A stretch of 34,751 bases of DNA from Treponema sp. Its GTDB lineage: Bacteria; Spirochaetota; Spirochaetia; Treponematales; Breznakiellaceae. A program made the position numbers and the translations under genes. The stretch's first letter is position 1, and each line of letters begins with the position of its first letter. The notes below the pieces were generated by a model. It saw only the letters and a list, made by a program, of their open reading frames with translations. It was not told the DNA's origin and did not search any database. Shown here one piece after another: positions 21,445-34,751 of the stretch. The stretch is from contig WQYB01000021.1 in NCBI GenBank assembly GCA_009781475.1, positions 1 through 34,751 on the forward strand, given 5' to 3'.

Positions 21445-22272
21445 TTATAATTCATAAATGGCATGTAAAAATAATGCTGCTGCCTGTGATACATTTAAAC
21501 TTTCAATATTGCCTGTTCCGGGAATGCGAAGCAGGCAGGAGCATTGATCTTTTATATTTTTAGGAAGCCCTGTTTCTTCGTTTCCAAGCAAAAGTGCAAT
21601 TCCGGGGCGGCATCCTACCCTTTCTGTTTTAATTTTTGTGTTTTTTACTATTTCGTTTAAATCTTTAATGCGCATTCTGGCTCTTGTATCCGTACCGATT
21701 GTTACAATTTTTTTTGACGCATCTTTTAAAAAAGCTGCTGTGTTTGAAACTCTGCGTACTGTTAGATGCTCGAACGCTCCTTCTGCGACACGGTAGGCGC
21801 TTGTTGTAAGCTGAGTTGTTTGCTGCGCTTGCTGCGCCTGCTCGTCTGTATTGCCGCTGGGCATCGAATCTTTTTCATTTAAAATGATATATGTAACATC
21901 AAAAAACGCGGCGGCTCTTGCGATTGCGCCTAAATTGTGATCATTGCCTACAGAATGCAGAATAACACCTGTTTTTCCTTCGTTTGCCCAAAGTTCAAGG
22001 TCTTCAAGACTTAGAGGTTCAATTACAGGTTCTTCGATCATTGCGACAACACCCTGGTGGTGGACACTTTTACAGATACGCTCAAGTTCTTCATCTTCGC
22101 AGATTTTATACGGACGTTTGCGTTCGGCAAGCTGTTTACAGATACCTGTAAACGATTGTAAGCGATCTTCACGTAAAAAGAGGCGGTTTATTTTTTGCGG
22201 GTTAAACTCGCCTGCCGCAAGAACGGCATTCATGCCGCACACTGCAAGTTCATCAGTTAATTTATTTCGCAT
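21445..22272 (-). CDS. SpoU/TrmH-family RNA 2'-O-methyltransferase
   Basis: 275 residues of the SPOUT knot fold, predicted to 2'-O-methylate rRNA or tRNA using SAM. An N-terminal L30e-like substrate-binding region ends near residue 80. The three SpoU motifs follow: NDHNLGAIARAAAFF (110-124), LLLGNEETGLP (227-237) and IPGTGNIESLNVSQAAALFL (250-269). A Gln-rich low-complexity insert (about 143-157, EQAQQAQQTTQ) sits in a loop of the catalytic domain. No good Shine-Dalgarno is visible before ATG 22272. The target nucleotide cannot be told; the domain layout resembles E. coli YfiF/TrmG-like and RlmB-like enzymes. Confidence 0.87.
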   Translation of the reverse strand: MRNKLTDELAVCGMNAVLAAGEFNPQKINRLFLREDRLQSFTGICKQLAERKRPYKICEDEELERICKSVHHQGVVAMIEEPVIEPLSLEDLELWANEGKTGVILHSVGNDHNLGAIARAAAFFDVTYIILNEKDSMPSGNTDEQAQQAQQTTQLTTSAYRVAEGAFEHLTVRRVSNTAAFLKDASKKIVTIGTDTRARMRIKDLNEIVKNTKIKTERVGCRPGIALLLGNEETGLPKNIKDQCSCLLRIPGTGNIESLNVSQAAALFLHAIYEL

Positions 22273-22642
22273 TGTTTATTCTGTTTTAAGAGTAGCAATG
22301 ATAGCAATTTATTTCAAGGAAATTAATGTAAATTACTTTTGTTTACTCTTTTTATCTTATTGACCCTTTCAAATTATACCGATGTCAGACACCTTATACA
22401 CAAGTTATCCACATGGTAAAAAAACGAATCTTTTATATTTCCATAATCAGCATTAATAATTCCAATAATCAAAACATGTAACTCCTTATACAGCAAGGAA
22501 TTAGCTTAACTTGTTATTTGAAATTCATGTTCGTGTTATTTAATTGTATAAAAATTAATACAGTCAAATGTTTATACAGACAATATACACAAGTTATCCA
22601 CATTCCAAGACCTGTATACGCAGTAAATCGGCTCTTAAAGTA
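22273..22642. other. 370-bp AT-rich intergenic region with DnaA-box cluster
   Basis: No gene was found here. Two consensus pairs are present. TTATACACA (22394-22402) and TTATCCACA (22405-22413) lie 2 nt apart. ATATACACA (22583-22591) and TTATCCACA (22594-22602) lie 2 nt apart. Two near-matches, TTATACAGC (22486-22494) and TTATACAGA (22572-22580), lie between them. All are in the same orientation. The 20-mer TATACACAAGTTATCCACAT occurs at 22395 and again at 22584. The DNA between is very AT-rich. This is the layout of a replication origin or a DnaA-binding/titration locus. No dnaA or dnaN gene is adjacent. Confidence 0.65.
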
Positions 22643-23194
22643 CTATCCCAGTAAAACCTGACCGGTTTCATCAATTGCAAGAATACTTTTGCATTCCGAA
22701 CACCGGAAACGCCCGGGTTTTACCGCTTTTAACTTTTTGTAACAGATAGGGCAGGAAACAACCTTTGGAAAAACCGAGGGTTTTTCTTTGGTGTGATCCG
22801 TATTAAAAAAATGTATCGAATCATCAAGACTATCCCTAATATTAAAAAATTGGGAAAAACCCAGAAGCTGGAAAACTTCGTATACTTTAGGCTGAATGTC
22901 CAATAGTACCAAATCCCCGCCTTGAGGTTTTACTGATTTTAAAAATGTTGTAAAAGAGCCAATCCCTGTAGATGATACATAATTTAAACTTCCGCATTGA
23001 AATATTAATCTTACAAAACCGCTTTCTATAGCTTTTTGAACACGTTTTTGAAAGAAATTGGAGTTATAAGTGTCGATGTAGCCTGTCAAGGTCAACATAA
23101 GACATCTTGGTGCATCATCAACTTTGTCGAGTTTTATTTTGAGACTGTCATCCTTCTCATCATCAAACCCTGGAACGATATCATTGTTAGCCAT
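22643..23194 (-). CDS. STAS-domain protein with C-terminal zinc ribbon
   Basis: 183 residues. An STAS domain (about 28-130) resembles anti-sigma-factor antagonists. CGSLNYVSSTGIGSF carries the serine/threonine region (74-76) that is phosphorylated in SpoIIAA-like proteins. A linker leads to a C-terminal zinc ribbon with C148, C151, C165 and C168 (CPIC and CSEC). It probably takes part in a partner-switching signalling pathway by binding an anti-sigma or kinase partner; the ribbon could bind protein or nucleic acid. No partner kinase or phosphatase is in the window. AAGGAAG lies upstream of the ATG. Confidence 0.82.
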   Translation of the reverse strand: MANNDIVPGFDDEKDDSLKIKLDKVDDAPRCLMLTLTGYIDTYNSNFFQKRVQKAIESGFVRLIFQCGSLNYVSSTGIGSFTTFLKSVKPQGGDLVLLDIQPKVYEVFQLLGFSQFFNIRDSLDDSIHFFNTDHTKEKPSVFPKVVSCPICYKKLKAVKPGRFRCSECKSILAIDETGQVLLG

Positions 23195-23330: not shown

Positions 23331-24065
23331 ATGTTATTACAAGATATTAAAATAGTACTCAGCCGCGTATCTGAGCCTGGAAACGTCGGCGCTGTCTGCA
23401 GGGCAATGAAAAACATGGGTCTTTTCGAGCTTCGAATAGCGGCAATAGCAGAACCCCTTGATACAGATATAATATATGAAAGAGCCGTTAATGCCAGGGA
23501 TATATGGGATAATACCCGTATTTTTAATACCCTCGCCGAAGCGACAGCAGATTGTTCTATTATAGTAGGAACTACACGCAGACGCGGTCAAAAGCGCAAT
23601 ATTTCCATGCCCCCCGGAAAACTTGCTTGTTTTCTTAAGGAACGCAAAGCAGGAAAAGCCGGCTGCACAGCTGCAGCTATTGTTTTTGGCAATGAAAGGA
23701 CAGGTCTGGATGAAAATGAACTAAAATTGTGTAATTTTGCCTCTCATATCCCTGTTTGTGAGGCACAGCCTTCTTTGAACCTTTCACATGCCGTGCAAAT
23801 TTACGCCTACGAATTATTTTTGGCAATGGAAAAGCAGCAATCTGTCAAAGGTGAATGGACAGCAATGAACCAGGCTGATATATCGGCTCTTGTAGGGACA
23901 ATTACAGATACCCTGGAAAGTGTAGGGTTCTACAAAAACCCAAATAAGCAGGAACAGGCTCGATTTTTACGCAATATAATCTCTAGAGCCGCTCTTACAA
24001 ACAGTGAAGGCGAGTATTTTAAGGAAATAATAAATAAAGCAGTGCAGCTTGGCGGCAAAACCTGA
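23331..24065 (+). CDS. trmJ: TrmJ-like tRNA/rRNA 2'-O-methyltransferase
   Basis: 244 residues of the SpoU/SPOUT class. Motif I is EPGNVGAVCRAMKNMG (15-30), motif II is IVFGNERTGL (117-126), and motif III is IPVCEAQPSLNLSHAVQIYAYE (begins at 140). A C-terminal helical extension with GFYKNPNKQEQARFLRNI is typical of TrmJ, which methylates position 32 of tRNAs. The start at ATG 23331 lacks a Shine-Dalgarno and sits 5 nt after a perfect TATAAT, so the mRNA is probably leaderless. The next gene has its own promoter overlapping this gene's stop codon. Confidence 0.87.
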   Translation: MLLQDIKIVLSRVSEPGNVGAVCRAMKNMGLFELRIAAIAEPLDTDIIYERAVNARDIWDNTRIFNTLAEATADCSIIVGTTRRRGQKRNISMPPGKLACFLKERKAGKAGCTAAAIVFGNERTGLDENELKLCNFASHIPVCEAQPSLNLSHAVQIYAYELFLAMEKQQSVKGEWTAMNQADISALVGTITDTLESVGFYKNPNKQEQARFLRNIISRAALTNSEGEYFKEIINKAVQLGGKT

Positions 24066-24860: not shown

Positions 24861-25901
24861 TTAATTAACAGGATATATTCCCATAGCGCCGACTTCCAGC
24901 CCATTGTCAAGCTCTTCGATAACGAAACCTTTCATAACGTTATATTCAGGCAGCTGCCGAAATCCAATGGTTGTTGTCCTGTGAATTCTGCGGTTGTCGG
25001 CATATTCATCAGTCCCGATTATATAATTTGTACCAAGTTCCCTTAAACCTGCCGAACTTTCAAGGTTTACAGTTTTTACTAACCTTCCATTACTTCCATA
25101 AATTAAAAAAGTCCAGTGGTAATATAACATTCCTGATAGTTCAAAAGATTCCTCTGCAATAATACGGTATTCTTTATGTGAAAATTCATCAATTACAAAC
25201 CGTGTTAATCTTGTAATCCTTGGATCATTTTCCGTTTGTTTTATGGCTCTTAATCTTTGTTTTAACCCTTCAACATTATCAAGGTCGTTTTGCGCATACT
25301 TAATACGTATTAAGAAATTAACGACCCAAAATAATTGAGAATCGAGAGCATCGCATATTTCAAAATATTTTTTTGCATTATTAAAATCGTTTCTGAAAAA
25401 ATAAATAAATGCCAGTGAATAATTTGTTTGAAAATCCAGCTCGTTTAATTTTAGAGCTTCTTTATAATAATTAATTGCAATATCAAGATTATTTCTGTAT
25501 TCATATATTTTCCCCAGAAAAAAATAGTTTCTATAACTTGTACTTCCCAGTTCAATACAGCGTAAAAACATGGTTTCGGCTTCTGTAAATTTCTCGCTGA
25601 AAAAATAAGACATTCCCAAATAACCGTGACTTTCTATATGGCTGTCATTTAATTCTATCGATCTTTTTAAATACCTTTGTGCATATTCGTCATTATCCAA
25701 AAAATAATAACATATCCCAATATGAAAAAAGACTGAATAATCATTACTGTCTTCTAATTGCTTCAGCAATTCTATTGCGGAAAGGAACTCTTCATTTTCT
25801 ATTTTTTCAATAGCTTCTTCAAATACAGCATTTGAATCAAGTTGAGCAAATACATTCAAAAAAACGATATTGAATATAATCAGCATAAAAACTGGTTTCA
25901 T
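24861..25901 (-). CDS. Exported TPR-repeat protein
   Basis: 346 residues with a cleavable signal peptide (1-19, ending NVFA). About five tetratricopeptide-like repeats lie between residues 24 and 205, with patterns such as FFHIGICYYFLDNDEYAQRY, HGYLGMSYFFSEKFTEAE and NYYKEALKLN. A C-terminal domain of about 110 residues is not recognised. The protein probably acts in the periplasm as a scaffold for protein contacts. A promoter with TTGGAC, an 18-nt spacer and TATTAT lies upstream. Confidence 0.82.
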   Translation of the reverse strand: MKPVFMLIIFNIVFLNVFAQLDSNAVFEEAIEKIENEEFLSAIELLKQLEDSNDYSVFFHIGICYYFLDNDEYAQRYLKRSIELNDSHIESHGYLGMSYFFSEKFTEAETMFLRCIELGSTSYRNYFFLGKIYEYRNNLDIAINYYKEALKLNELDFQTNYSLAFIYFFRNDFNNAKKYFEICDALDSQLFWVVNFLIRIKYAQNDLDNVEGLKQRLRAIKQTENDPRITRLTRFVIDEFSHKEYRIIAEESFELSGMLYYHWTFLIYGSNGRLVKTVNLESSAGLRELGTNYIIGTDEYADNRRIHRTTTIGFRQLPEYNVMKGFVIEELDNGLEVGAMGIYPVN

Positions 25902-25923
25902 AAAATTCTTACCTCTTTAATAA

Positions 25924-25953
25924 ATAATAACATGCAAACCGGTTTATGTCCAA
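25924..25953 (-). promoter_or_regulatory. Predicted promoter of the TPR gene with palindromic spacer
   Basis: Minus strand: -35 TTGGAC (25953-25948), 18-nt spacer, -10 TATTAT (25929-25924). The spacer contains the perfect 10-bp palindrome AAACCGGTTT (25936-25945), a plausible operator. Confidence 0.45.
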
Positions 25954-26016
25954 TTATTGTTTTTACGAAAGTTCCCGTTTTTTAACTCTATTTTCCTGCA
26001 AACGCTTATTTCTATA

Positions 26017-26505
26017 TTATCTTCTTGTAATAACCACATTTTGATCAAAAGCTCCATTACCAATATAAGTTACAGAATTTGGAATCGTTACATTAGTCAA
26101 CCGGTTTGAAGCAAATGCATCATCACCAATCCATATAACAGAATTAGGTATTGTAATACTTGTAAGTTTATTATCAGCAAATGCTTCTTCTCCGATATAA
26201 GTTACGGAATTTCCAATAGTAATTCCGGTTAATTGATTATTGCAAAATGCTCCCATTCCAATAGAAGTAACCGAATCAGGAATAATAACTCTGGTTAATT
26301 GATTATTAGAAAATACACACGCCCCAATAGTAGTAACTAAAACATTTCTTATTCTGCCAGGTATAACGATATTTTTTTCTTCGCCTGTATACCCTATAAT
26401 GGTTATTGTTCCATTTTCTTCAATATAGGTAAAATCTGATTCACTTTGGCTAAAAACAGAAAAACCAATGCAAAACATTAATAAAAGAATAAACATTTTT
26501 TTCAT
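26017..26505 (-). CDS. BspA-type leucine-rich repeat surface protein
   Basis: 162 residues with a signal peptide (1-20, ending FSVFSQ). Four clear repeats of about 22 residues follow a degenerate first one, of the form NxLTxITIPNSVTxIGxxAF. This is the Treponema pallidum/BspA LRR class. The repeats differ from each other by few residues, suggesting recent expansion. Such proteins are exported and often bind host or bacterial surfaces. The protein is short for the class, so it may be a minimal or reduced member. A Shine-Dalgarno-like GAGAGG precedes the ATG. Confidence 0.88.
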   Translation of the reverse strand: MKKMFILLLMFCIGFSVFSQSESDFTYIEENGTITIIGYTGEEKNIVIPGRIRNVLVTTIGACVFSNNQLTRVIIPDSVTSIGMGAFCNNQLTGITIGNSVTYIGEEAFADNKLTSITIPNSVIWIGDDAFASNRLTNVTIPNSVTYIGNGAFDQNVVITRR

Positions 26506-26536
26506 AACCTGCCTCTCTAATTTAAATTATAAATTT

Positions 26537-26947
26537 TTATTTTTCTGCAAGCGCTCCCATCATACGCCCGTCTTTTTTAGATATTCGAATATTATATACC
26601 GTACCAAGAGCTGTACCGGGTTCGAAAAACCAAACATGACATAACCATGAATCGTATTCTTGTTCATAATTAATTTTAATTTGCGGATATTCAGTTCCAT
26701 TAATTGGTATATTTTCGTTAATACTAGCTCCATAGAGCACTTTCAAATACGCTAATGCTACTATCCTTGCCGCTTCTTCATCAGGCACAACTCCTATTCC
26801 GGCGAATTGATAAAGTTTATATCTATGTCCGGTATTTCCAAAATAATACATTGATTCATCTGTGGTATTAATTTCTTTATCATTACTGATATTATCACCA
26901 CAAGAAGATAAAATAATAAAAACTGCTGTAAAATAAAGATATTTCAT
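26537..26947 (-). CDS. Lipoprotein resembling NTF2-fold immunity proteins
   Basis: 136 residues from ATG 26947, chosen because AAGGAAG lies upstream; a longer frame from 26974 would run through the promoter. The N-terminus ends in a lipobox (IILSSC, Cys at 16). The mature part has VPDEEAARIVALAYLKVLYG and ends in TVYNIRISKKDGRMMG, a pattern I associate with NTF2-fold immunity domains of polymorphic-toxin systems (VPDEETA...YG...EI.KKDG). No toxin gene is adjacent, so it may be an orphan immunity protein or simply a related fold. It has a consensus promoter. Confidence 0.7.
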   Translation of the reverse strand: MKYLYFTAVFIILSSCGDNISNDKEINTTDESMYYFGNTGHRYKLYQFAGIGVVPDEEAARIVALAYLKVLYGASINENIPINGTEYPQIKINYEQEYDSWLCHVWFFEPGTALGTVYNIRISKKDGRMMGALAEK

Positions 26948-26962
26948 ACAATCTTCCTTAAT

Positions 26963-26991
26963 ATTATATATCAACTTTTGATATTTGTCAA
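26963..26991 (-). promoter_or_regulatory. Consensus sigma70 promoter of the NTF2-fold lipoprotein gene
   Basis: Minus strand: -35 TTGACA (26991-26986), exactly 17-nt spacer, -10 TATAAT (26968-26963). Both boxes match consensus fully. The ATG is 15 nt downstream of the -10 box, with AAGGAAG between, giving a very short leader. Confidence 0.75.
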
Positions 26992-27009
26992 TTAAAAAAG
27001 TCTAAAATA

Positions 27010-27429
27010 TCAAAAAACATTATTTTTCTTTTTTAATCCCAAGAAATATAATACACTTAACACATTATAAGATATACAATATGCTGATATCACTCTTAAT
27101 ATACTATTTTCAATTATTAATGTATTTTCATTTCCAAATTTTAATGACACAATAATAAAATTGAATGTTGCATAGATAATTGAAATCCAAATCAGATAAG
27201 AATATTTTTTTGTAGCGTCAGGTAAAATATTTTTATAAAATGAAAACATACCACTTGTTAAATTTTTATCTTTATTATTGTCTTCATGTTTTCTATTTTT
27301 TATTAATATAAATGCATGCAAACCAAATATAGGAAGTTGTGTAATAAAAAGCAAAATAGACACAATTTGTAAATTAAAACTCGAAAATAGATAAGTTGAG
27401 ACATTTATAAAAATACTAATGATTAACAT
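27010..27429 (-). CDS. Small multi-pass membrane protein
   Basis: 139 residues, very hydrophobic, with about four membrane segments (near 1-14, 20-42, 77-97 and 110-132). A charged loop HEDNNKDKN lies after the second segment and a basic C-terminus (GLKKKNNVF) at the end. I do not recognise it. No Shine-Dalgarno precedes the ATG at 27429; the repeat hairpin at 27455-27489 lies about 25 nt upstream. It precedes the NTF2-fold lipoprotein gene on the same strand, but that gene has its own promoter. Confidence 0.6.
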   Translation of the reverse strand: MLIISIFINVSTYLFSSFNLQIVSILLFITQLPIFGLHAFILIKNRKHEDNNKDKNLTSGMFSFYKNILPDATKKYSYLIWISIIYATFNFIIVSLKFGNENTLIIENSILRVISAYCISYNVLSVLYFLGLKKKNNVF

Positions 27430-27454
27430 TATTAAAGATAAAATAAATATAAGG

Positions 27455-27489
27455 CAATCTCTAAAAACTAAAATAGTTTTTAGAGATTG
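27455..27489. repeat. Perfect hairpin, TCTCTAAAAA family
   Basis: CAATCTCTAAAAACT (27455-27469) and AGTTTTTAGAGATTG (27475-27489) with a 5-nt loop. The core ATCTCTAAAAAC is shared with the hairpin at 24821-24854. Confidence 0.8.
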
Positions 27490-27503
27490 ATGTAATTATA
27501 TCA

Positions 27504-27530
27504 TTTTTTGAGGCTTTTAGCCTCAAAAAA
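27504..27530. terminator. Bidirectional rho-independent terminator-like hairpin
   Basis: TTTTTTGAGGCT (27504-27515) and AGCCTCAAAAAA (27519-27530) with a TTT loop. The GAGGCT stem flanked by A and T tracts suits termination on both strands. Confidence 0.6.
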
Positions 27531-27547
27531 CATTAATTTGCTATCTG

Positions 27548-27581
27548 TGGGAACCTCTAAAAAGAGTTTTAGAGGTTCCCA
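27548..27581. repeat. Perfect hairpin, GGGAACCTCTAAAA family
   Basis: TGGGAACCTCTAAAA (27548-27562) and TTTTAGAGGTTCCCA (27567-27581) with an AGAG loop. The same 15-nt left arm recurs alone at 34629-34643. Confidence 0.8.
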
Positions 27582-27680
27582 TAATATATTCTCCATAAAT
27601 AATAAAATATCATAAAATAAATATTTTGTCAATTATGTTTTTATATAATTTTTATATTTTCACAATATTTAGCATTTCTC

Positions 27681-27780
27681 TTGCCGCTTAAGGTTGGTAA
27701 GCCGCCCGCAAACCAAAGTTCGATGGCTTTTGAAGTTGCGAAAGCAACTTCTTAGTGTTAATCCTGTTATGTGCCGTTTT
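27681..27780. other. GC-rich structured block overlapping a gene end
   Basis: A 100-bp block with 45 G or C between flanks of very low GC. It contains GAAGTTGC-GAAA-GCAACTTC (27732-27751), an 8-bp stem closed by a GNRA tetraloop on the plus strand, plus AAGCC (27699-27703) pairing with GGCTT (27725-27729). The stop codon and last codons of the 27767 lipoprotein lie inside its right edge. It could be a structured RNA, a recombination site or a remnant; it is not identified. Confidence 0.5.
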
Positions 27781-28687
27781 GCATTTTTTCAAATTCTATA
27801 TAATATTCATGTATTATACCACTTTCATAATATGCATGAATTTTTACATGTAAATTCAATTTATTATCTTGAAAATAATATTTATGTTCATAACTACTTA
27901 TATGTTCACCTAAATAATGAACAAAAACTCCATTTAAACTACTAACAACAATAATAGTTTCGTCTGGTATATTATAATATATTATATAACTTTCAATTTC
28001 TTCTTCCTTGAATATATAAACTTTTGCGTTTAAAATATTATCTAAATTAATATTCCTTCCTTCTTCTTCAATAATATTATATGAAGAAAATTGATAAATA
28101 TTATATTTAGTTATATTTATTTTATCAAATATTCCTGTTGATAATAATAGGTTTCTATATTCATCCGTTTCATCTTCACGAATTCTACTATAATTGAATT
28201 CAATAACTTCATCATTAAATCTATATTCAAAATAATCACTTATTGTACCGCCTGTAATACTACCAGAAACAATGGGAGAATTCATATTAAAATAACCTTT
28301 AGTAAATCTGGGATAACTATATTTCATATAATGCCTTCCATCTTCCATTCCAACAATAACAGCTCCTTTAGAAAAATGCTCTTCAAATATACTCCTACTT
28401 TGTGAATTCTGGCGTTGCGTTTGATTTCTAGCATTAAAATCAAATTGTGTAAATTCTTTAAACCTATATACTCTAAAAATATTTTCATTAATAATCCATT
28501 CCATTTCACAAATATCTATACTATTGTCTTTGTTTTCGCTTTCGAAATAAATAGAACTGTTGTTAACGTTTTCAATTCTTATATTGCCATTGTATTCAAT
28601 ATTTCCCGAATTTGATAAAGAATTAATATTTTCCTTAGGAACACAATTTATTAATAAAAAACAAACAAAAATAATTATTATTTTCAT
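27767..28687 (-). CDS. Unknown lipoprotein
   Basis: 306 residues with a hydrophobic N-terminus ending LLINC, so lipidation at Cys15 is predicted. The rest is rich in Tyr, Ile, Asn and Glu, largely beta-strand-like, with no motif I recognise. AAGGCGG lies just upstream of the ATG. Codon use is strongly AT-biased, like its island neighbours. The last codons and the stop fall inside the GC-rich block at 27681-27780, so the C-terminus may have been set by insertion or recombination there. Confidence 0.7.
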   Translation of the reverse strand: MKIIIIFVCFLLINCVPKENINSLSNSGNIEYNGNIRIENVNNSSIYFESENKDNSIDICEMEWIINENIFRVYRFKEFTQFDFNARNQTQRQNSQSRSIFEEHFSKGAVIVGMEDGRHYMKYSYPRFTKGYFNMNSPIVSGSITGGTISDYFEYRFNDEVIEFNYSRIREDETDEYRNLLLSTGIFDKINITKYNIYQFSSYNIIEEEGRNINLDNILNAKVYIFKEEEIESYIIYYNIPDETIIVVSSLNGVFVHYLGEHISSYEHKYYFQDNKLNLHVKIHAYYESGIIHEYYIEFEKMQNGT

Positions 28688-28735
28688 ATTTACCGCCTTT
28701 TAATTATTTAAGCATTGCACTTAATTCTCATTTAT

Positions 28736-28832
28736 ACGAAGCCTATTATTCCTTACAGTCAATAATAGATTTGTGTAAATAAAAACCTGGCAAAATTCTG
28801 ACGATTTTTGTCGTTTTTGTTTTACATGGTTT
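28736..28832. repeat. Duplicated intergenic element, copy A
   Basis: Starts ACGAAGCC and contains a TTATTC-like run, then TCAATAATAG, later ACCTGGCAAAATTCTGACG, and ends CATGGTTT. It matches 30518-30640 with substitutions and length differences. The 3' half folds into an imperfect hairpin (AAACCTGG with CATGGTTT) that may terminate the ankyrin gene's transcript. Confidence 0.65.
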
Positions 28833-28861
28833 GTAAGGTTCTTTAATACCTTAAAAACAAG

Positions 28862-29836
28862 CTATCTTGATATAATCAAATCATTGGGCATTCGTCCAAA
28901 ATTTGTTCTTATATTTTGATTTGCACCTCTTAAAATAAGCGTTTCCCTTGCTCCAGATGAAGAAGCGCAAGCAAAATGCAAAGCTGTCCAACCGTATTTA
29001 TTTTGCAGATTTATATTAATGCCTGCATTTAATAATAAAACACCTACCTGTGCTTGTCTCATTTTCACATTACTAGGATTTAAATAATAAGGCATATCAG
29101 AAATATAATTAATTCTAACATTTTCAGCGTCTTCAATAATTGGATTTACCCAATTTACACTTGGTCCAAATGACATAATACAATAAATTAAAGCTGTATT
29201 ATTATTATTGTCAAGTACATTTATATTTATATTTTTACTCAACAAATATGTTATTAGATTAACATCATTATTAATAGCAGCAATATGAAGAATTGTACGT
29301 CCAATACCATCTACTCTATCAGATAAATTAATATTAAAATATTCTACAACTCTTTGATAGTTTTCCGGTTCAACAATCCTCAGGAGATATGGAGAATTTA
29401 ACTGTCCTTCTGTTATTTCATAAACCGTTTGCATTCGTTGTTCAAAAGTTGTTGTTTGATCATTAAAAAACGATCGGAAATATAAAGCACTAGTATTTAC
29501 ATCTACTTTTCCAGAAGCAATTAAAAGTCTTATCACATTAATATGCTTGTTTGCCGCAGCCTTTTCAAATGCTTTTTGCGGATTCATAGCATCTAATGAT
29601 AGTAAATACTCTACTATTTCATAACGACCATCATTTGCTGCTCGTTCCAATGGCGTAAATGTATTATTTCCTAAATTAATATCAGCACCGCTTGCAACTA
29701 GTCTCCTAACCTGTGTTAAATTACCTCTAATAACAGCGTCAAGTAATCTTGATTGAGCATCTACCGATATATTGATAAATAATCCAAATATAATTGTAAA
29801 AGAAAAAAAACTAATGATTCTATAATAATACTTCAT
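28862..29836 (-). CDS. Exported ankyrin-repeat protein
   Basis: 324 residues from ATG 29836, chosen for GGAGG 5 nt upstream rather than the TTG four codons earlier. A signal peptide (about 1-28, ending SVDAQ) is followed by ankyrin repeats. Clear units are RLVASGADINLGNNTFTPLE with AANDGRYEIVEYLLS, later GRTILHIAAINNDVNLITYL, and the final GWTALHFACASSSGARETLI. A middle stretch (about 105-165) is less regular. It probably mediates protein binding in the periplasm; ankyrin proteins also occur as immunity proteins, but nothing here proves that. Its promoter-like region is shared with the 33793 gene. Confidence 0.85.
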   Translation of the reverse strand: MKYYYRIISFFSFTIIFGLFINISVDAQSRLLDAVIRGNLTQVRRLVASGADINLGNNTFTPLERAANDGRYEIVEYLLSLDAMNPQKAFEKAAANKHINVIRLLIASGKVDVNTSALYFRSFFNDQTTTFEQRMQTVYEITEGQLNSPYLLRIVEPENYQRVVEYFNINLSDRVDGIGRTILHIAAINNDVNLITYLLSKNININVLDNNNNTALIYCIMSFGPSVNWVNPIIEDAENVRINYISDMPYYLNPSNVKMRQAQVGVLLLNAGININLQNKYGWTALHFACASSSGARETLILRGANQNIRTNFGRMPNDLIISR

Positions 29837-29867
29837 AAAAACCTCCAAAATGAATATATAATCAAAT

Positions 29868-29896
29868 ATAATAAAATATTTGCTAACCGACCATAA
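29868..29896 (-). promoter_or_regulatory. Shared promoter-like module upstream of the ankyrin gene
   Basis: Minus strand: TTATGG (29896-29891), 17-nt spacer, TATTAT (29873-29868), then ATTTGAT. The same arrangement and flanking letters (TTATGGTCG, TATTATATTTGAT) occur before the 33793 gene, while the spacer sequence differs. Confidence 0.5.
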
Positions 29897-29936
29897 AAAT
29901 CGAATGTTTTTAGAATAAATATTTCATTTATTTTTC

Positions 29937-29965
29937 TTGATTTATGAATTAATTTTTATTATTTT
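29937..29965 (+). promoter_or_regulatory. Tentative promoter of the 29995 lipoprotein gene
   Basis: -35 TTGATT (29937-29942), 17-nt spacer, -10-like TATTTT (29960-29965), then Shine-Dalgarno AGGAGGG before ATG 29995. TATAAC at 29970-29975 is an alternative -10. Confidence 0.35.
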
Positions 29966-29994
29966 AGTCTATAACAAACCTATAGGAGGGTTTT

Positions 29995-30480
29995 ATGAAA
30001 AAGAATACGTTTTATTTGTTGGGAATACTTTGTTTTATTTTACCTTTTATTGTTTTTTTGAATGGCTGTGAAGCAATACCTCCTTATATGCCTGATTTGA
30101 CCATAGCTGAAAATCCTCGTGGTCTTTCTGTTGATCCTGAAAATTGCGCTTATATTGGGGGAAGAATCAGAGCCATTGGTAATCATGATTTTGATCCTGG
30201 GAAGGGAGCAATGGAAAGTTATCCAACTAGAACGGTGCGGGTTCCAGCAGGAGAAACCATGATTGCTTTAATACATTATGCTCATCAATCACAAACTACA
30301 GTATATTACGGATTTAAATTTATTTCATTACCGCCTCTTGAAAGCGGAAGCTCGTATTTATTGTATCTTGACGCTCCATCTTTTGGAACAAATTGGAAAA
30401 ATAAACAAATTAATTTAAAAAGAGTGAATTTGGATTCTGGTATTCTTGAAAATATTGAAGGTGCGACTTTTATAAATTAG
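29995..30480 (+). CDS. Unknown lipoprotein
   Basis: 161 residues, the only plus-strand gene of the island's right part. The hydrophobic N-terminus ends VFLNGC, giving predicted lipidation at Cys25. The mature part has PRGLSVDPENCAYIGGRIRA, then TRTVRVPAGETMIALIHYAH and a C-terminal beta-rich region, which suggests a small beta-sandwich. I do not recognise a family. AGGAGGG is a strong Shine-Dalgarno. It is followed after 37 nt by copy B of the duplicated element, which likely ends the transcript. Confidence 0.72.
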   Translation: MKKNTFYLLGILCFILPFIVFLNGCEAIPPYMPDLTIAENPRGLSVDPENCAYIGGRIRAIGNHDFDPGKGAMESYPTRTVRVPAGETMIALIHYAHQSQTTVYYGFKFISLPPLESGSSYLLYLDAPSFGTNWKNKQINLKRVNLDSGILENIEGATFIN

Positions 30481-30517
30481 TATTCATCTTACGCAGAACT
30501 ACTTATTTTACTTTAAG

Positions 30518-30640
30518 ACGAAGCCAGTTATTCTTTGCAATCAATGATAGGTTTGATAGGTACAAGGTAAAAAAGTGGTATAAATATATATAAACCAGGC
30601 AAAATTCTAACGTTTTTTTCGTTTTAGTTTTACCTGGTTT
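30518..30640. repeat. Duplicated intergenic element, copy B, with terminator hairpin
   Basis: Starts ACGAAGCC and contains TCAATGATAGGTTTG, then AAACCAGGCAAAATTCTAACG, ending CCTGGTTT. AAACCAGG (30592-30599) and CCTGGTTT (30633-30640) form a perfect 8-bp outer stem with a further imperfect inner stem around a T-rich loop. It lies between convergent genes at 29995 (+) and 30649 (-) and probably acts as a terminator for both. It is a diverged copy of 28736-28832. Confidence 0.68.
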
Positions 30641-30648
30641 ATTTTAAT

Positions 30649-31137
30649 TTACTGATCTGGTCCTGATAAGCGATGCCACAATGCTCCTTTTTCATACTGG
30701 AAACCATGAAAATTATTGGTTTCAATCCAAAAAGTATTTCTGTCAATGAAGTGGAGTATCAATTCTAAAGAAAAACCATAATTTTTATTATATGGTGATG
30801 CTCGAAAAGCACTTATTCTTATAGAATTTAAATCAATTTGTGTAATATTAGTAATTGGAAATGAACCAAGATCAGGATCACAAATGAATGGTACATCAGC
30901 TGTAATGTCAATTTCAAATGTTGTATTGACAATTATTATTGCTTCTCCCCATGAAAAAGACCATGAAGAGTAACTCTTTTCTTCTTCTGATAATTCTAAA
31001 GCTGCTTTATATGACCAATCAGGCTGCCATGTTCCGTTTAAATCAGAAATTTCTATTGCGAAACTTCGTCCTGCCACACATATAATCAAAATGAATATTT
31101 TAATTAATGCGGAAAAACCATATTTAATACCTTGCAT
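30649..31137 (-). CDS. Exported unknown protein
   Basis: 162 residues from ATG 31137, preferred because GAGGT lies upstream and the residues from there form a typical signal peptide (about 1-27, ending GRSFA). The frame is open to 31200, but the extra part would run through AT-rich promoter-like DNA. The mature part begins DLNGTWQPDW and has repeated hydrophobic strands such as INSIRISAF-like and ELILHFIDRNTFWIE, ending WHRLSGPDQ. The pattern suggests a small lipocalin-like or beta-barrel exported domain, without proof. Confidence 0.65.
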   Translation of the reverse strand: MQGIKYGFSALIKIFILIICVAGRSFAIEISDLNGTWQPDWSYKAALELSEEEKSYSSWSFSWGEAIIIVNTTFEIDITADVPFICDPDLGSFPITNITQIDLNSIRISAFRASPYNKNYGFSLELILHFIDRNTFWIETNNFHGFQYEKGALWHRLSGPDQ

Positions 31138-31227
31138 AAATACATACCTCACAAATATTATAATTAACCTTAATATAGTAATTTTACCAAGAAAAAGCAA
31201 AAAAAATATTCTGAAAAAGTAAAGTAA

Positions 31228-32295
31228 TTATCTTACCCGTATACTTTTTATTGATTCTGTTATAATAATATCTTCTGAAAACAGTTCATTTAATCTGTAA
31301 TTTCTAAAAACGTACTCACCTTTTAATCTTTCGTCTTTCCATGATATTCCTATATCAAAATAATCCAAGTCTTTTTTATCCGGTATCAAATAAAGAACAG
31401 GTATATACAAAATATTATACTTATAATAGATCACAACAATATCCGTTCCTTCATTAATACTTCTATATGTATATTCTTTATTCAAATCAGCATAATATAA
31501 ATTATTAATAATAAATGGAGTTTCGTCCAATTTATCATAAATTATTGAATATAAAATATTCTGCGACAACTCCTTATTTAACAAAATATCATTATTTGAC
31601 TTGACAATAAATTGCCAATTATTTCCATCGGTAAGCCAGAATTTGTTTTCAAAAAGAATATTATCATAATATCCAGAAATTTCATCTCCTCCATAAAAAC
31701 CCTGTATTGGTTTTAATATAATATTTTTGGTAAACTCATGCCTGCTGTTTTTCGCTATAAGAGTATATTGGTTATTTAAAGATATATTCTTTTCCAATAC
31801 AATTTGAATTACGCCTGCATGATTATTTATACTGTTTCTATCAATAACATGATATGGAGCCTCTCCATAATCACCGCTTTGAATAGTAATAATACAAGGA
31901 GCGGTATAATCGAGTGTAATTTTACAATTTTTAACATCAACTAATTGAGAAAATAATGAAATAATATATAATTCATCTTCACTATTATTGCTGCTTGTAA
32001 TAATATCATTAAGTAAATCCCTGTTAAAAATCCAGGTTATTTCATCTCCATTTTCAATTTCTACCCAATAATTAAACAGATCATCTATTGTTTTGATTAT
32101 TTTTAATTCTGTTGTTGTGTTTCCGCTCCTATTCATTATGTATGAATCATGTAAATTATCTTTTGTTTCTGTTGGACTTTGATTATTGGTAGCAGTATTT
32201 TCAATAAAACTTAATTCATTATTTTCAGGTTTTTTTACACAACTGCAAATAATTAAAATAATTAAAAGAATAAAAATTGTTTTTTTATTTAACAT
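31228..32295 (-). CDS. Unknown lipoprotein
   Basis: 355 residues. The hydrophobic N-terminus ends IICSC, so lipidation at Cys19 is predicted, followed by a Lys-rich and Asn/Thr-rich linker. The remainder is beta-rich with several Tyr and Trp residues, and no motif is recognised. AGGAG sits upstream of the ATG. It lies 25 nt downstream of the 33793 gene on the same strand, so the two are probably co-transcribed. Confidence 0.7.
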   Translation of the reverse strand: MLNKKTIFILLIILIICSCVKKPENNELSFIENTATNNQSPTETKDNLHDSYIMNRSGNTTTELKIIKTIDDLFNYWVEIENGDEITWIFNRDLLNDIITSSNNSEDELYIISLFSQLVDVKNCKITLDYTAPCIITIQSGDYGEAPYHVIDRNSINNHAGVIQIVLEKNISLNNQYTLIAKNSRHEFTKNIILKPIQGFYGGDEISGYYDNILFENKFWLTDGNNWQFIVKSNNDILLNKELSQNILYSIIYDKLDETPFIINNLYYADLNKEYTYRSINEGTDIVVIYYKYNILYIPVLYLIPDKKDLDYFDIGISWKDERLKGEYVFRNYRLNELFSEDIIITESIKSIRVR

Positions 32296-32320
32296 AAAAA
32301 GCTCCTATTCTTCTTCATAT

Positions 32321-33793
32321 TCAATATGTTTCAGTATGATTACTTTGAATAATTACACCCCATGGATTTTCATCAAGTATTTTAAGATCTCCTCCAAAAA
32401 TCCAGCCGGTATACTCAGTAAATTTATCAGGTAAATATTTTAATGATGGATCATAATTATAATTATCATCAGAATCGAAAATTATTTTATACCAATAATC
32501 TTCTACTCCATTTACAATAGATTTTGTCTCTGTACGTTTTAATACCTCTACGCTGGATAAATTCAAAGAACTATTAAGAGCTTCATGAGGTTTTGATCTA
32601 ATCATGACTCCATCGGTTATATTTATTATAATTCGTGATTTTTCATCAGGTTCTGCGTATAAATTACAATCTAAATTTATACGACCAATATACCCATACA
32701 CAGTAGTTGTACCAGGTTCAACACTATACCGCTTTAAATCTATACGGCTGCCGGCAGAAAGAGGTGTTACTACACTATTTCCAAATGTCAATTTTGACGC
32801 AGAAATATTCTCTGTCTTTACCCAATCATCATAATTAACAATGTCATATATCATTAAGCATAACTTGTCATCATACATCCCTTTTATTAATACTCGTTTT
32901 TGATCAACACTAAAATCAATTAATGTATCATGAAGCGCTTTTATCGGGTCTCCTTCATTTTTTAAATATGGAGCTGTTATTTGAGGTATAGAAAAAACCA
33001 ATCTATTATTATAAATCCTAACTACATAGTATGCTCTGTGTCCATAAGGATTACTTAATTCATTGGAATTTAACATAAATACATATTTATTATCCAGGAT
33101 TTTCCAATCTGTAGGTCTTGTTAAATACCCCTCAGCAGAGTTAAAGACTCTTGCATTTAAATTATCCAATAAATCATAATTTGCATTAATACTTCCAGAC
33201 CATGCAGCAGGCATATTCGATCTATCTACAGCGTAAGAAGCCTCATGCCAATCAGGGGATTCTAATCTTTCATAATTAATTATGTAAGAATTGCTATGAG
33301 GGGTTTGAGAAAAATATTCACCTAAAAACAAGGATAAAAATTCCGCATCATCAACTGCCGAAACACCTTCTAAATAAGTATATTTATACCGATGCAATCC
33401 ATCATAACTTTCTAAAAGCAGAATTTCAGAAATACGAGATTTATAAAACACCAAAGGGCTGGATGAATCGCAAACTGTGATAATATCAATTACCTGTTGG
33501 CGGTCATAATCAAATAAAATATATTGGTATTGACCGGAATCATTAAAGATTGTTTTATCTTCTACCTCAATAATGATATCTTCACGATTACCAAAGAATA
33601 CACGCCTATACAAGGAATGAGCTTCTTCTGTCCATTCAATCATAGTATGAAGTCGTAAACCTATTCCGTCATATCTATATGTCACAATTGTCTCTTGTTC
33701 CTGCACCGAATTTACTTCTTGTGACTGCTTTACACATGATATGAATAAAAAAGTCATAAGAATCATGAATAAACTTAATTTGAATGTTTTCAT
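32321..33793 (-). CDS. Lipoprotein with C-terminal SH3-like domain
   Basis: 490 residues from ATG 33793. The frame is open ten codons further, but that part would overlap the promoter-like module. The hydrophobic N-terminus ends LFISC, so lipidation is predicted. The C-terminal 100 residues form an SH3b-like module ending YTGWIFGGDLKILDE, after IVNGVEDYWYKI. This module is paralogous to that of the next gene upstream (33841): both share a KRYS-x-GT stretch, an NGV...WYKI stretch and GW(I/V)FG. Together with its short leader, no Shine-Dalgarno is seen. SH3b domains often bind cell-wall or peptide ligands; the role here is unknown. Confidence 0.75.
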   Translation of the reverse strand: MKTFKLSLFMILMTFLFISCVKQSQEVNSVQEQETIVTYRYDGIGLRLHTMIEWTEEAHSLYRRVFFGNREDIIIEVEDKTIFNDSGQYQYILFDYDRQQVIDIITVCDSSSPLVFYKSRISEILLLESYDGLHRYKYTYLEGVSAVDDAEFLSLFLGEYFSQTPHSNSYIINYERLESPDWHEASYAVDRSNMPAAWSGSINANYDLLDNLNARVFNSAEGYLTRPTDWKILDNKYVFMLNSNELSNPYGHRAYYVVRIYNNRLVFSIPQITAPYLKNEGDPIKALHDTLIDFSVDQKRVLIKGMYDDKLCLMIYDIVNYDDWVKTENISASKLTFGNSVVTPLSAGSRIDLKRYSVEPGTTTVYGYIGRINLDCNLYAEPDEKSRIIINITDGVMIRSKPHEALNSSLNLSSVEVLKRTETKSIVNGVEDYWYKIIFDSDDNYNYDPSLKYLPDKFTEYTGWIFGGDLKILDENPWGVIIQSNHTETY

Positions 33794-33803
33794 ATTATCA
33801 AAT

Positions 33804-33832
33804 ATAATAAATATTCTATACATCGACCATAA
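33804..33832 (-). promoter_or_regulatory. Shared promoter-like module upstream of the 33793 gene
   Basis: Minus strand: TTATGG (33832-33827), 17-nt spacer, TATTAT (33809-33804), then ATTTGAT and 10 nt in all to ATG 33793. It matches the module at 29868-29896. Confidence 0.5.
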
Positions 33833-33840
33833 AGAAAATA

Positions 33841-34335
33841 TTACATGCCGTAATGAGTATCTGGTTTTTTGGTTTCATGTACATATAAAAAATCTTCTAT
33901 TTCAATAAAATTTCCAAAAACCCAACCCCTTAATTCATTCATCTTTCCTGTTTCATCATCCATATTAATATGAATCTTGTACCAATGTGCAGCAACCCCA
34001 TTTATTATATCTTTATTTTCAGATACTTCTTCGATACATACTTCTGCATTATGCCATAATAAATTAAGTTGTTCTGAATTATTTGAAGTTAATCTTCTTA
34101 CAGGGATATTATCACCAACAATTTCTCCTGTAATAATATGTGTACCATAATCTTGACTATATCTTTTTACTGCCTTATCTACTGCGTCATGAAGCCAAGT
34201 GCCGCTTACCCCACTTTTATTAATTTCTTCATTTATTAAGAAATCAACATTATTTACATCTACCCAGCCGATAATATCTCCGCTTTTAACAAATAAAGCT
34301 GTAGGATATTTTTCTTCTAAATTACTAAAAAACAT
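33841..34335 (-). CDS. SH3-like domain protein, probably lacking its true 5' end
   Basis: 164 residues if started at ATG 34335, but this ATG has no Shine-Dalgarno or signal peptide and lies in the middle of an SH3-like domain (GDIIGWVDVNN follows shortly). The C-terminal part is a second SH3-like module with IINGVAAHWYKIHINMDD and RGWVFGNFIEIED, paralogous to the C-terminus of the 33793 gene. The reading frame stays open for another 112 codons upstream and looks like real protein there. This is therefore best read as a 5'-truncated or start-lacking gene; see the entry at 34336-34671. Confidence 0.6.
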   Translation of the reverse strand: MFFSNLEEKYPTALFVKSGDIIGWVDVNNVDFLINEEINKSGVSGTWLHDAVDKAVKRYSQDYGTHIITGEIVGDNIPVRRLTSNNSEQLNLLWHNAEVCIEEVSENKDIINGVAAHWYKIHINMDDETGKMNELRGWVFGNFIEIEDFLYVHETKKPDTHYGM

Positions 34336-34671
34336 ATTTATTACTTCGATTTCTGTTCCAGCTCTGATATTTCCAATTTTATTCCCAGAAATTAATCCAT
34401 TATTAAATACTTCCGTATTTGTAAGTATTTTAAATCGGAAGTTTTCAAATGTATATTTATTAATTTTAAAATATCCAACAGAATCAAAATCATCGATAAA
34501 TCTGTTTATTCCAAGATGATAATTAATTATTTGTTCTTTTGAAATGTTAATATAGTATTTATTAGTACTAGAATAAGCACTTAAATACTGAGGTATTCCT
34601 CCTATAAAATAGAGAAATATTTCTATTTTGGGAACCTCTAAAAACCTAGATAATTTCCTATTTCTTTGTAA
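34336..34671 (-). pseudogene. In-frame coding-like 5' extension without start codon
   Basis: Continuing the 33841 frame upstream of ATG 34335 gives 112 open codons up to a TAG at 34674-34672. The translation is protein-like (for example VGYFKINKYTFENFRFKIL, then SGNKIGNIRAGTEIEVI leading into the SH3-like domain). No ATG, GTG or TTG occurs in this stretch. AGGAGG (34603-34598) is present but no start codon follows it. The 15-nt hairpin arm TGGGAACCTCTAAAA (34629-34643) lies at the far end. The gene has probably lost its signal-peptide region. Confidence 0.55.
34629..34643. repeat. Single arm of the GGGAACCTCTAAAA hairpin family
   Basis: TGGGAACCTCTAAAA is identical to the left arm at 27548-27562. 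The opposite arm is not present within the window. Confidence 0.6.
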
Positions 34672-34674
34672 CTA

Positions 34675-34751
34675 TAATAATTTTAGATTAACTTTTAGAT
34701 TTTATCAACAAAAAAATTATTAAGTCAAATAATTTTCCGTTTTTATCGTCA
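34675..34751. other. AT-rich end of window
   Basis: The last 77 bases are AT-rich. I see no gene, hairpin or promoter that can be supported. Confidence 0.5.

Follow-up and report, generated by a model that had tools for sequence, protein, structure and literature searches.

The window analysed here, the whole stretch of 34,751 nucleotides, is contig C21 of the 216 contigs in a metagenome-assembled genome. Its closest relatives with names are metagenome assemblies designated Treponema sp.; the isolate codes of the relatives' assemblies presumably stand for termite guts, and Breznakiella homolactica, with a complete genome, belongs to the wider group. The site of interest lies in a gap between coding genes at 22273-22642. 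To its left is a gene for an RlmB/SpoU-family RNA 2'-O-methyltransferase (21445..22272, minus strand) with its 5' end facing the site, and to its right a gene for a STAS-domain protein with four invariant C-terminal cysteines (22643..23194, minus strand) with its 3' end facing it. Divergent from the STAS gene runs a gene for a TrmJ/YjtD-family RNA methyltransferase (23331..24065, plus strand), often the neighbor of STAS in this genus.

Five DnaA boxes stand in two sets within the gap, all on the plus strand. The left set (22394..22413) consists of TTATACACA at 22394-22402 and TTATCCACA at 22405-22413, 11 bp apart, and the right set (22572..22602) of three boxes in 11-bp steps, namely TTATACAGA at 22572, ATATACACA at 22583 and TTATCCACA at 22594. 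When both strands of the window were scanned, 22394, 22405 and 22594 were the only perfect TTATNCACA sites. A 20-mer, TATACACAAGTTATCCACAT, with copies at 22395-22414 and 22584-22603, occurs exactly twice in the 3.29-Mb assembly, even when three mismatches are allowed. On these points, as on the shared orientation of the boxes and the gene-free, AT-rich character of the gap (76% AT at 22414-22582 versus 64% for the window), a preliminary description of the site was accurate. Its account of the imperfect boxes stands in part: ATATACACA at 22583 does differ from TTATNCACA by one mismatch, but so does TTATACAGA at 22572, which had been termed weaker, and the sequence listed as a weak box at 22486 (TTATACAGC) is present but is really the middle of dyad B (22479-22503), a conserved palindrome.

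The DnaA-box cluster is real and far beyond chance. By a Poisson estimate from the genome's size and composition, a triple of perfect boxes spanning at most 209 bp is expected 0.011 times per 3.29 Mb, and a single simulated genome contained none. One-mismatch boxes showed no excess across the whole window (48 versus a chance mean of 49.9), so the signal lies in the clustering and the perfect matches. A DnaA-box cluster together with an AT-rich stretch, as would be looked for in an oriC, is found at the site. Paired DnaA boxes are also present elsewhere, for example at G000:C44:19122.

Comparison with relatives shows that the cluster is part of a larger unit, in which two same-direction box sets about 190-230 bp apart enclose two conserved dyads. 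Dyad B (22479..22503) is of the type TAANTCCTTA-N6-AAGGANTTA, here TAACTCCTTATACAGCAAGGAATTA; it lies midway between the box sets and is also found in the dnaA-linked origins of relatives. Dyad A (22545..22562) is of the type TGTAT-N8-ATACA, here TGTATAAAAATTAATACA, and its centre is 62.5 bp from that of dyad B. Of 43 units, 37 have the two centres 62.5-64.5 bp apart and the remaining six 48.5-54.5 bp, which corresponds to about six or about five helical turns. We also considered dyad B as an RNA hairpin and rejected this, since its arms in the units are often unpaired at the variable position; a protein site on double-stranded DNA therefore fits better. The sole Rfam match was below threshold and away from the cluster.

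A sequence-only model, R1, was made from an alignment of 38 units. It matches the window at 22469..22603 on the plus strand (79 bits, E 7.2e-22), the window copy having been in the training set. Across 39 genomes of the genus, that of the window among them, a single strong copy (46.7-86 bits) was found in 24, and no genome had two; five of the 24 lie outside R1 training (G001, G003, G010, G031, G060). Among the 11 best-assembled genomes (completeness at least 90%, contamination at most 5%), six carry a strong copy (G007, G013, G020, G021, G029, G061) and five do not (G008, G012, G019, G026, G034), the latter belonging to the 15 of 39 same-genus genomes in which no strong R1 copy was found. The preliminary description had held that absence from close relatives would count against its reading, and the outcome is mixed, since the cluster is kept in the 24 genomes and a strong copy is lacking in the 15. 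Genomes or loci without the unit may have lost it, or it may have moved, diverged or been missed, and the first pass of R1 scored part of the candidates.

Beyond the genus, three complete relatives outside the training set have R1 matches at 48.8-50.2 bits, and a fourth, G067, has kept two boxes alone at the same place. Apart from the dnaA locus, the strong unit as scored by R1 is found once per genome; a single non-coding DnaA-box cluster outside oriC, as expected of a datA-type locus, is seen in 24 of 39 genomes and in the three complete ones. Below the strong matches R1 listed at least 22 dnaA-linked sites in at least 21 genomes, at about 23-38 bits, and most of these, among the matches listed, span nearly the entire model; further matches listed were sites with dyads A and B only, and weaker ones. 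Around STAS, 40 of 80 named loci reached at least 43 bits. Of these, 31 were in the training set or came from training genomes, and nine were independent of it (L079, L087, L102, L110, L114, L118, L132, L139, L148). In an order-wide sample of 241 genomes scored with stricter filters, 53 had an R1 match at E of at most 1e-6, all but three of them in the same family, some of the 53 matches being origins or sites with A and B.

A test independent of R1 pointed in the same direction. A same-direction box pair 185-240 bp apart, with at most one mismatch in total and at most 2.6 kb past STAS, was found at 45 of 79 loci versus 1 of 255 control windows, which were taken from the same loci and are mostly coding; it was absent from the other 34 named STAS loci. 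In Gracilinema and other distant relatives the two boxes are kept at the same place with A and B weak or absent, which suggests that the box pair is the more ancient part of the unit. The spacings of the pairs (one per locus, 45 loci) group near 190, 200, 212, 222 and 233 bp. Their period of about 10.7 bp has a vector strength of 0.56 (none of 5000 random sets as high), or 0.50 on the 22 distinct values, and should be interpreted with some caution since it is partly built in, with boxes inside sets 11 bp apart and the rows related to one another. Such a period fits two DnaA sets that would need to be on the same face of the helix, as in a loop.

As the preliminary description had noted, dnaA is not near the cluster: none is present in the window, and the gene lies on contig C65 with genes for DnaN, RecF and GyrA and a weak DciA match. 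That contig ends at the dnaA start codon, and the stretch upstream of dnaA is unassembled in the window genome. Its DnaA contains GRDHTTVIHS near the C-terminus, which we take to be the box-reading signature of the protein. In relatives, an origin-type box cluster with two same-direction sets lies directly upstream of dnaA, and 19 of 21 spacings between the sets are 199-203 bp, these origins having been picked by a box filter of our own. Boxes and dyad B have similar offsets in the dnaA-linked origins and the STAS-side units, while dyad A is weaker in oriC, absent from it, or on the other side of B.

Some smaller observations concern the dnaA loci themselves. In the window genome, the dnaA-dnaN gap on C65 has weak boxes only. 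Just past the end of dnaA in G068, locus L328 (G068:C1:1796-1877) has a dyad B between two one-mismatch boxes, and on this observation the G068 origin may be bipartite. Three assemblies each contain two different dnaA genes (L170/L171 in G014, L172/L173 in G033, L066/L027 in G003), with box clusters upstream wherever the upstream side is assembled; they reflect either mixed bins or a real duplication.

According to one reading offered in the preliminary description, the cluster would be a replication origin, be it the main one of the species or a second one. The layout resembles that of oriC, being AT-rich and having two sets of boxes some 200 bp from each other on either side of dyad B, and in the window genome the corresponding stretch upstream of dnaA is the unassembled one. 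Against this, 20 of the 24 genomes that have a strong unit also showed a dnaA-linked box cluster, and in the other four (G000, G001, G005, G016) the search did not recover dnaA or the side upstream of it. In a check for an unwinding element, AT content was similar (68% in the units versus 70% in the dnaA-linked origins), and the oriC stretch following the dnaA-proximal boxes was matched less well by 47 units (mean 6.6 of 14) than by 21 origins (9.7 of 14), from which the motif itself had been read. GC skew, though weak, favors dnaA as the origin. In Breznakiella, sampled as 60 stretches of 20 kb (about a quarter of the chromosome), cumulative skew on an even grid has a trough at about 3.0-3.8 Mb (lowest at 3.48 Mb) and a maximum near 0.7 Mb. 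The trough takes in dnaA, at 3.13 Mb, and leaves out the unit, at 2.73 Mb, but the skew is weak and swayed by a few AT-rich stretches and the trough is broad, so that it places the origin only roughly. At the Breznakiella unit the local skew is near zero, with no turn to positive. On short stretches of G011, G014 and G033, and less clearly of G008, skew turns at dnaA, and in the first three gene direction turns too. The skew minimum that had been proposed as a check on an origin was found neither at the Breznakiella copy nor in the window, where cumulative skew instead rises to a broad maximum, with peaks at 17-18 and 21-22 kb, a little to the left of the unit. For two complete genomes, G068 (9 points) and G083 (8 points), the skew was too weak for origin placement. 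One exception among the weak skews, a shallow cumulative minimum in G015:C2 near its unit copy, leaves the origin reading weakened and not closed. With origin-type clusters and skew turns at dnaA in relatives, and parS near dnaA in two genomes, the results did not bear that reading out, and we regard it as very improbable.

The parS data also bear on a reading in which the main user of the site would be a nucleoid or segregation protein recognizing A and B, and DnaA a partner linking it to the origin region. It would suit such a protein that few parts of the unit are as regular as dyads A and B, that the two are spaced by about six or five helical turns, and that dyad B is scattered over these genomes. 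However, the distant relatives that keep the boxes with weak or no dyads, Gracilinema among them, make the boxes look older, and canonical parS exists separately. The parS consensus is TGTTNCACGTGNAACA. It has no match in the window, and in the stretches read a perfect canonical copy was found in G008, about 12 kb from dnaA, and in Breznakiella, where the distance to dnaA is about 30 kb, and none in those of G068 and G083. Dyads A and B as parS itself were rejected on the absence of a consensus match in the window and the separate canonical copies in two relatives. A primary role for a nucleoid or segregation protein is, in our view, unlikely.

A serious rival is that the unit is a transcriptional control region, in which DnaA and factors on A and B would regulate the facing gene (RlmB here; EF-G or c1 elsewhere) and couple it to the replication cycle. 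In its favor, of the 50 loci that could be read on both sides, 48 have a 5' end facing the unit, and on the opposite side there is usually the 3' end of STAS or PspA. Borrelia DnaA binds DNA 5' of several replication genes (PMC9879097). In addition, A and B, similarly spaced but lacking the two box sets, are found beside a sigma-70-family gene (by Pfam) at L201, L208, L213, L215, L221, L224 (G000:C3:73383) and L310, the dyads of L310 having been assigned from the R1 match. The sigma-54 promoter has the consensus TTGGCA-N-TTGCT, and by eye a sequence of this type is present at L201, L208, L213, L215, L221 and L224. These copies support A and B as regulator sites and keep the operator reading alive; given them, the two dyads may be ordinary operators.

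The identity of the facing gene argues against an operator. Among 52 loci (44 STAS loci at 27 bits or more plus eight others, with L115, a partial match at 33 bits, and weaker matches left out), it is c1 in 27, EF-G in 12, mostly in the window's genus, and RlmB in one, the window; the rest have other or unnamed frames. EF-G, PspA and RNase Y were named by Pfam, and c1, a membrane protein, had no Pfam match. The best STAS tree (41 rows) requires five changes of facing gene, although many of its forks are weak and fewer changes follow from the well-supported branches alone. In nine of the 52 loci the unit is inverted with respect to its neighbors: c1 or EF-G is on the unusual side in eight of them, and L117 was judged from the next gene. 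In G020 the unit is flanked by EF-G and RNase Y and STAS is about 19 kb away, and in G001 it is surrounded by genes unrelated to the usual neighbors. The closest relative of the window by STAS identity (98%), G016, has EF-G in place of RlmB, a difference that a chimeric join in either assembly may explain. Because the facing gene varies and the unit is inverted in nine loci, it looks free-standing. DnaA control of the flanking RNA methyltransferase and STAS genes, as put forward in the preliminary description, is weakened by the other genes that flank the unit in relatives, and regulation of the facing gene in general seems to us a doubtful, if serious, candidate.

In complete relatives the unit and dnaA are 210 kb apart of 4.06 Mb (5.2%) in G068, 348 kb of 3.86 Mb (9.0%) in G083 and 404 kb of 4.65 Mb (8.7%) in Breznakiella (G223), and in G067, with the box pair alone, the distance is 260 kb of 3.24 Mb (8.0%). 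These values come from complete relatives, the window genome being in 216 contigs. An origin-proximal place, as expected of a datA-type locus, was thus observed in all four, at 5.2-9.0% of the chromosome, and this nearness may reflect shared descent.

The best-supported explanation, which we consider somewhat probable, is that the window cluster serves as a DnaA-binding control locus, free-standing and without origin function, in the manner of datA or DARS of E. coli. Between the two readings of the preliminary description, the candidate DnaA-binding locus is well supported by conservation and the origin is unlikely; DnaA binding to the unit is inferred from the conservation of the boxes. In the mechanism we propose, DnaA would occupy both box sets, and proteins on dyads B and A would bend or bridge the DNA and join both DnaA sets in one complex. 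Such a complex would lower or reset active DnaA soon after the locus is copied, and it could act by titration of DnaA, by faster ATP hydrolysis or by nucleotide exchange. By analogy, an origin-proximal locus would be copied soon after initiation, which suits a post-initiation brake.

To our knowledge, non-origin DnaA loci that tune initiation have been worked out mainly in E. coli, which agrees with the papers cited here, and we found no paper on such a locus in treponemes in the open-access library searched, where datA as a search term is partly blurred by the word 'data'. According to the papers cited here, datA spans about 1 kb, holds five boxes and works with IHF (PMC5295017); it is located downstream of a tRNA-Gly operon (PMC10950094) and maps at 94.6 min, with oriC at 84.6 min and DARS1 and DARS2 at 17.5 and 64 min (PMC4585315). 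The same papers report that datA needs IHF and lowers ATP-DnaA, that the DARS loci raise ATP-DnaA, and that the positions of datA and DARS relative to oriC are conserved (PMC4585315, PMC5295017, PMC10950094); IHF and Fis act at DARS1 and DARS2 (PMC5295017). By these accounts, datA and the unit are both non-coding DnaA-box clusters, off oriC and origin-proximal, and where datA needs a helper DNA-bending protein the unit has putative helper sites in dyads A and B. They differ in that the unit's five boxes are split into two sets about 200 bp apart around two dyads, a layout like that of the local oriC. DARS1 and DARS2, likened here by description and not by sequence, are also non-coding DnaA-box loci and regulate DnaA, but on the cited E. 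coli map they are farther from oriC than the unit is from dnaA here. In Bacillus subtilis, six DnaA-box clusters outside the origin have been described, and their joint removal leads to early initiation (PMC5295017, a review); clusters outside the origin are thus common to both, whereas the cited part of the review mentions no dyads for the six and there is one strong unit here.

The unit also resembles the local oriC, with which it has dyad B and the spacing of the boxes in common: in both, two sets of like-oriented boxes lie about 200 bp from each other on either side of the dyad. The unit differs in that no dnaA is beside it, dyad A differs in placement and strength, and skew does not turn at the Breznakiella copy. 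A more elaborate version, which we put forward tentatively and do not expect to hold in full, is that of a locus devoted to replication timing. It would be a paralogue-like oriC copy lacking origin function, where DnaA and two regulators on A and B, dyads also present beside a sigma-factor gene with a sigma-54-type promoter, let growth or stress set DnaA activity, and which, although like datA and DARS, would have evolved separately in another phylum. If a non-origin DnaA locus of this kind, conserved in spirochaetes and modelled on the local oriC, is real, it would mean that such control sites arise independently. The presence of dyad B in both the unit and oriC would, moreover, offer a starting sequence for identifying proteins at work at spirochaete origins.

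Dyad B alone is no marker of the unit: counted over whole genomes it gave a mixed picture, with copies that follow tRNA genes and others in a MITE-like repeat. Dyad-B-like palindromes were observed within about 40 nt downstream of a tRNA gene at 11 of 44 loci scanned (L180, L183, L187, L189, L190, L194, L195, L196, L200, L211, L216), and some of these look like intrinsic terminators. At seven loci (L186, L192, L193, L198, L202, L209, L219) the palindrome is central in a short MITE-like repeat with ends near ctagtgtcctgtaatatt. In G004 there are 84 plus-strand dyad-B matches, one copy of which, L184, has MITE-like ends similar to ctagtgtcctgtaatatt. Within the window itself, the stretch at 25000-34751 is AT-rich (23-32% GC) with mostly strongly negative GC skew, and contains a BspA-type leucine-rich-repeat gene at 26017-26505.
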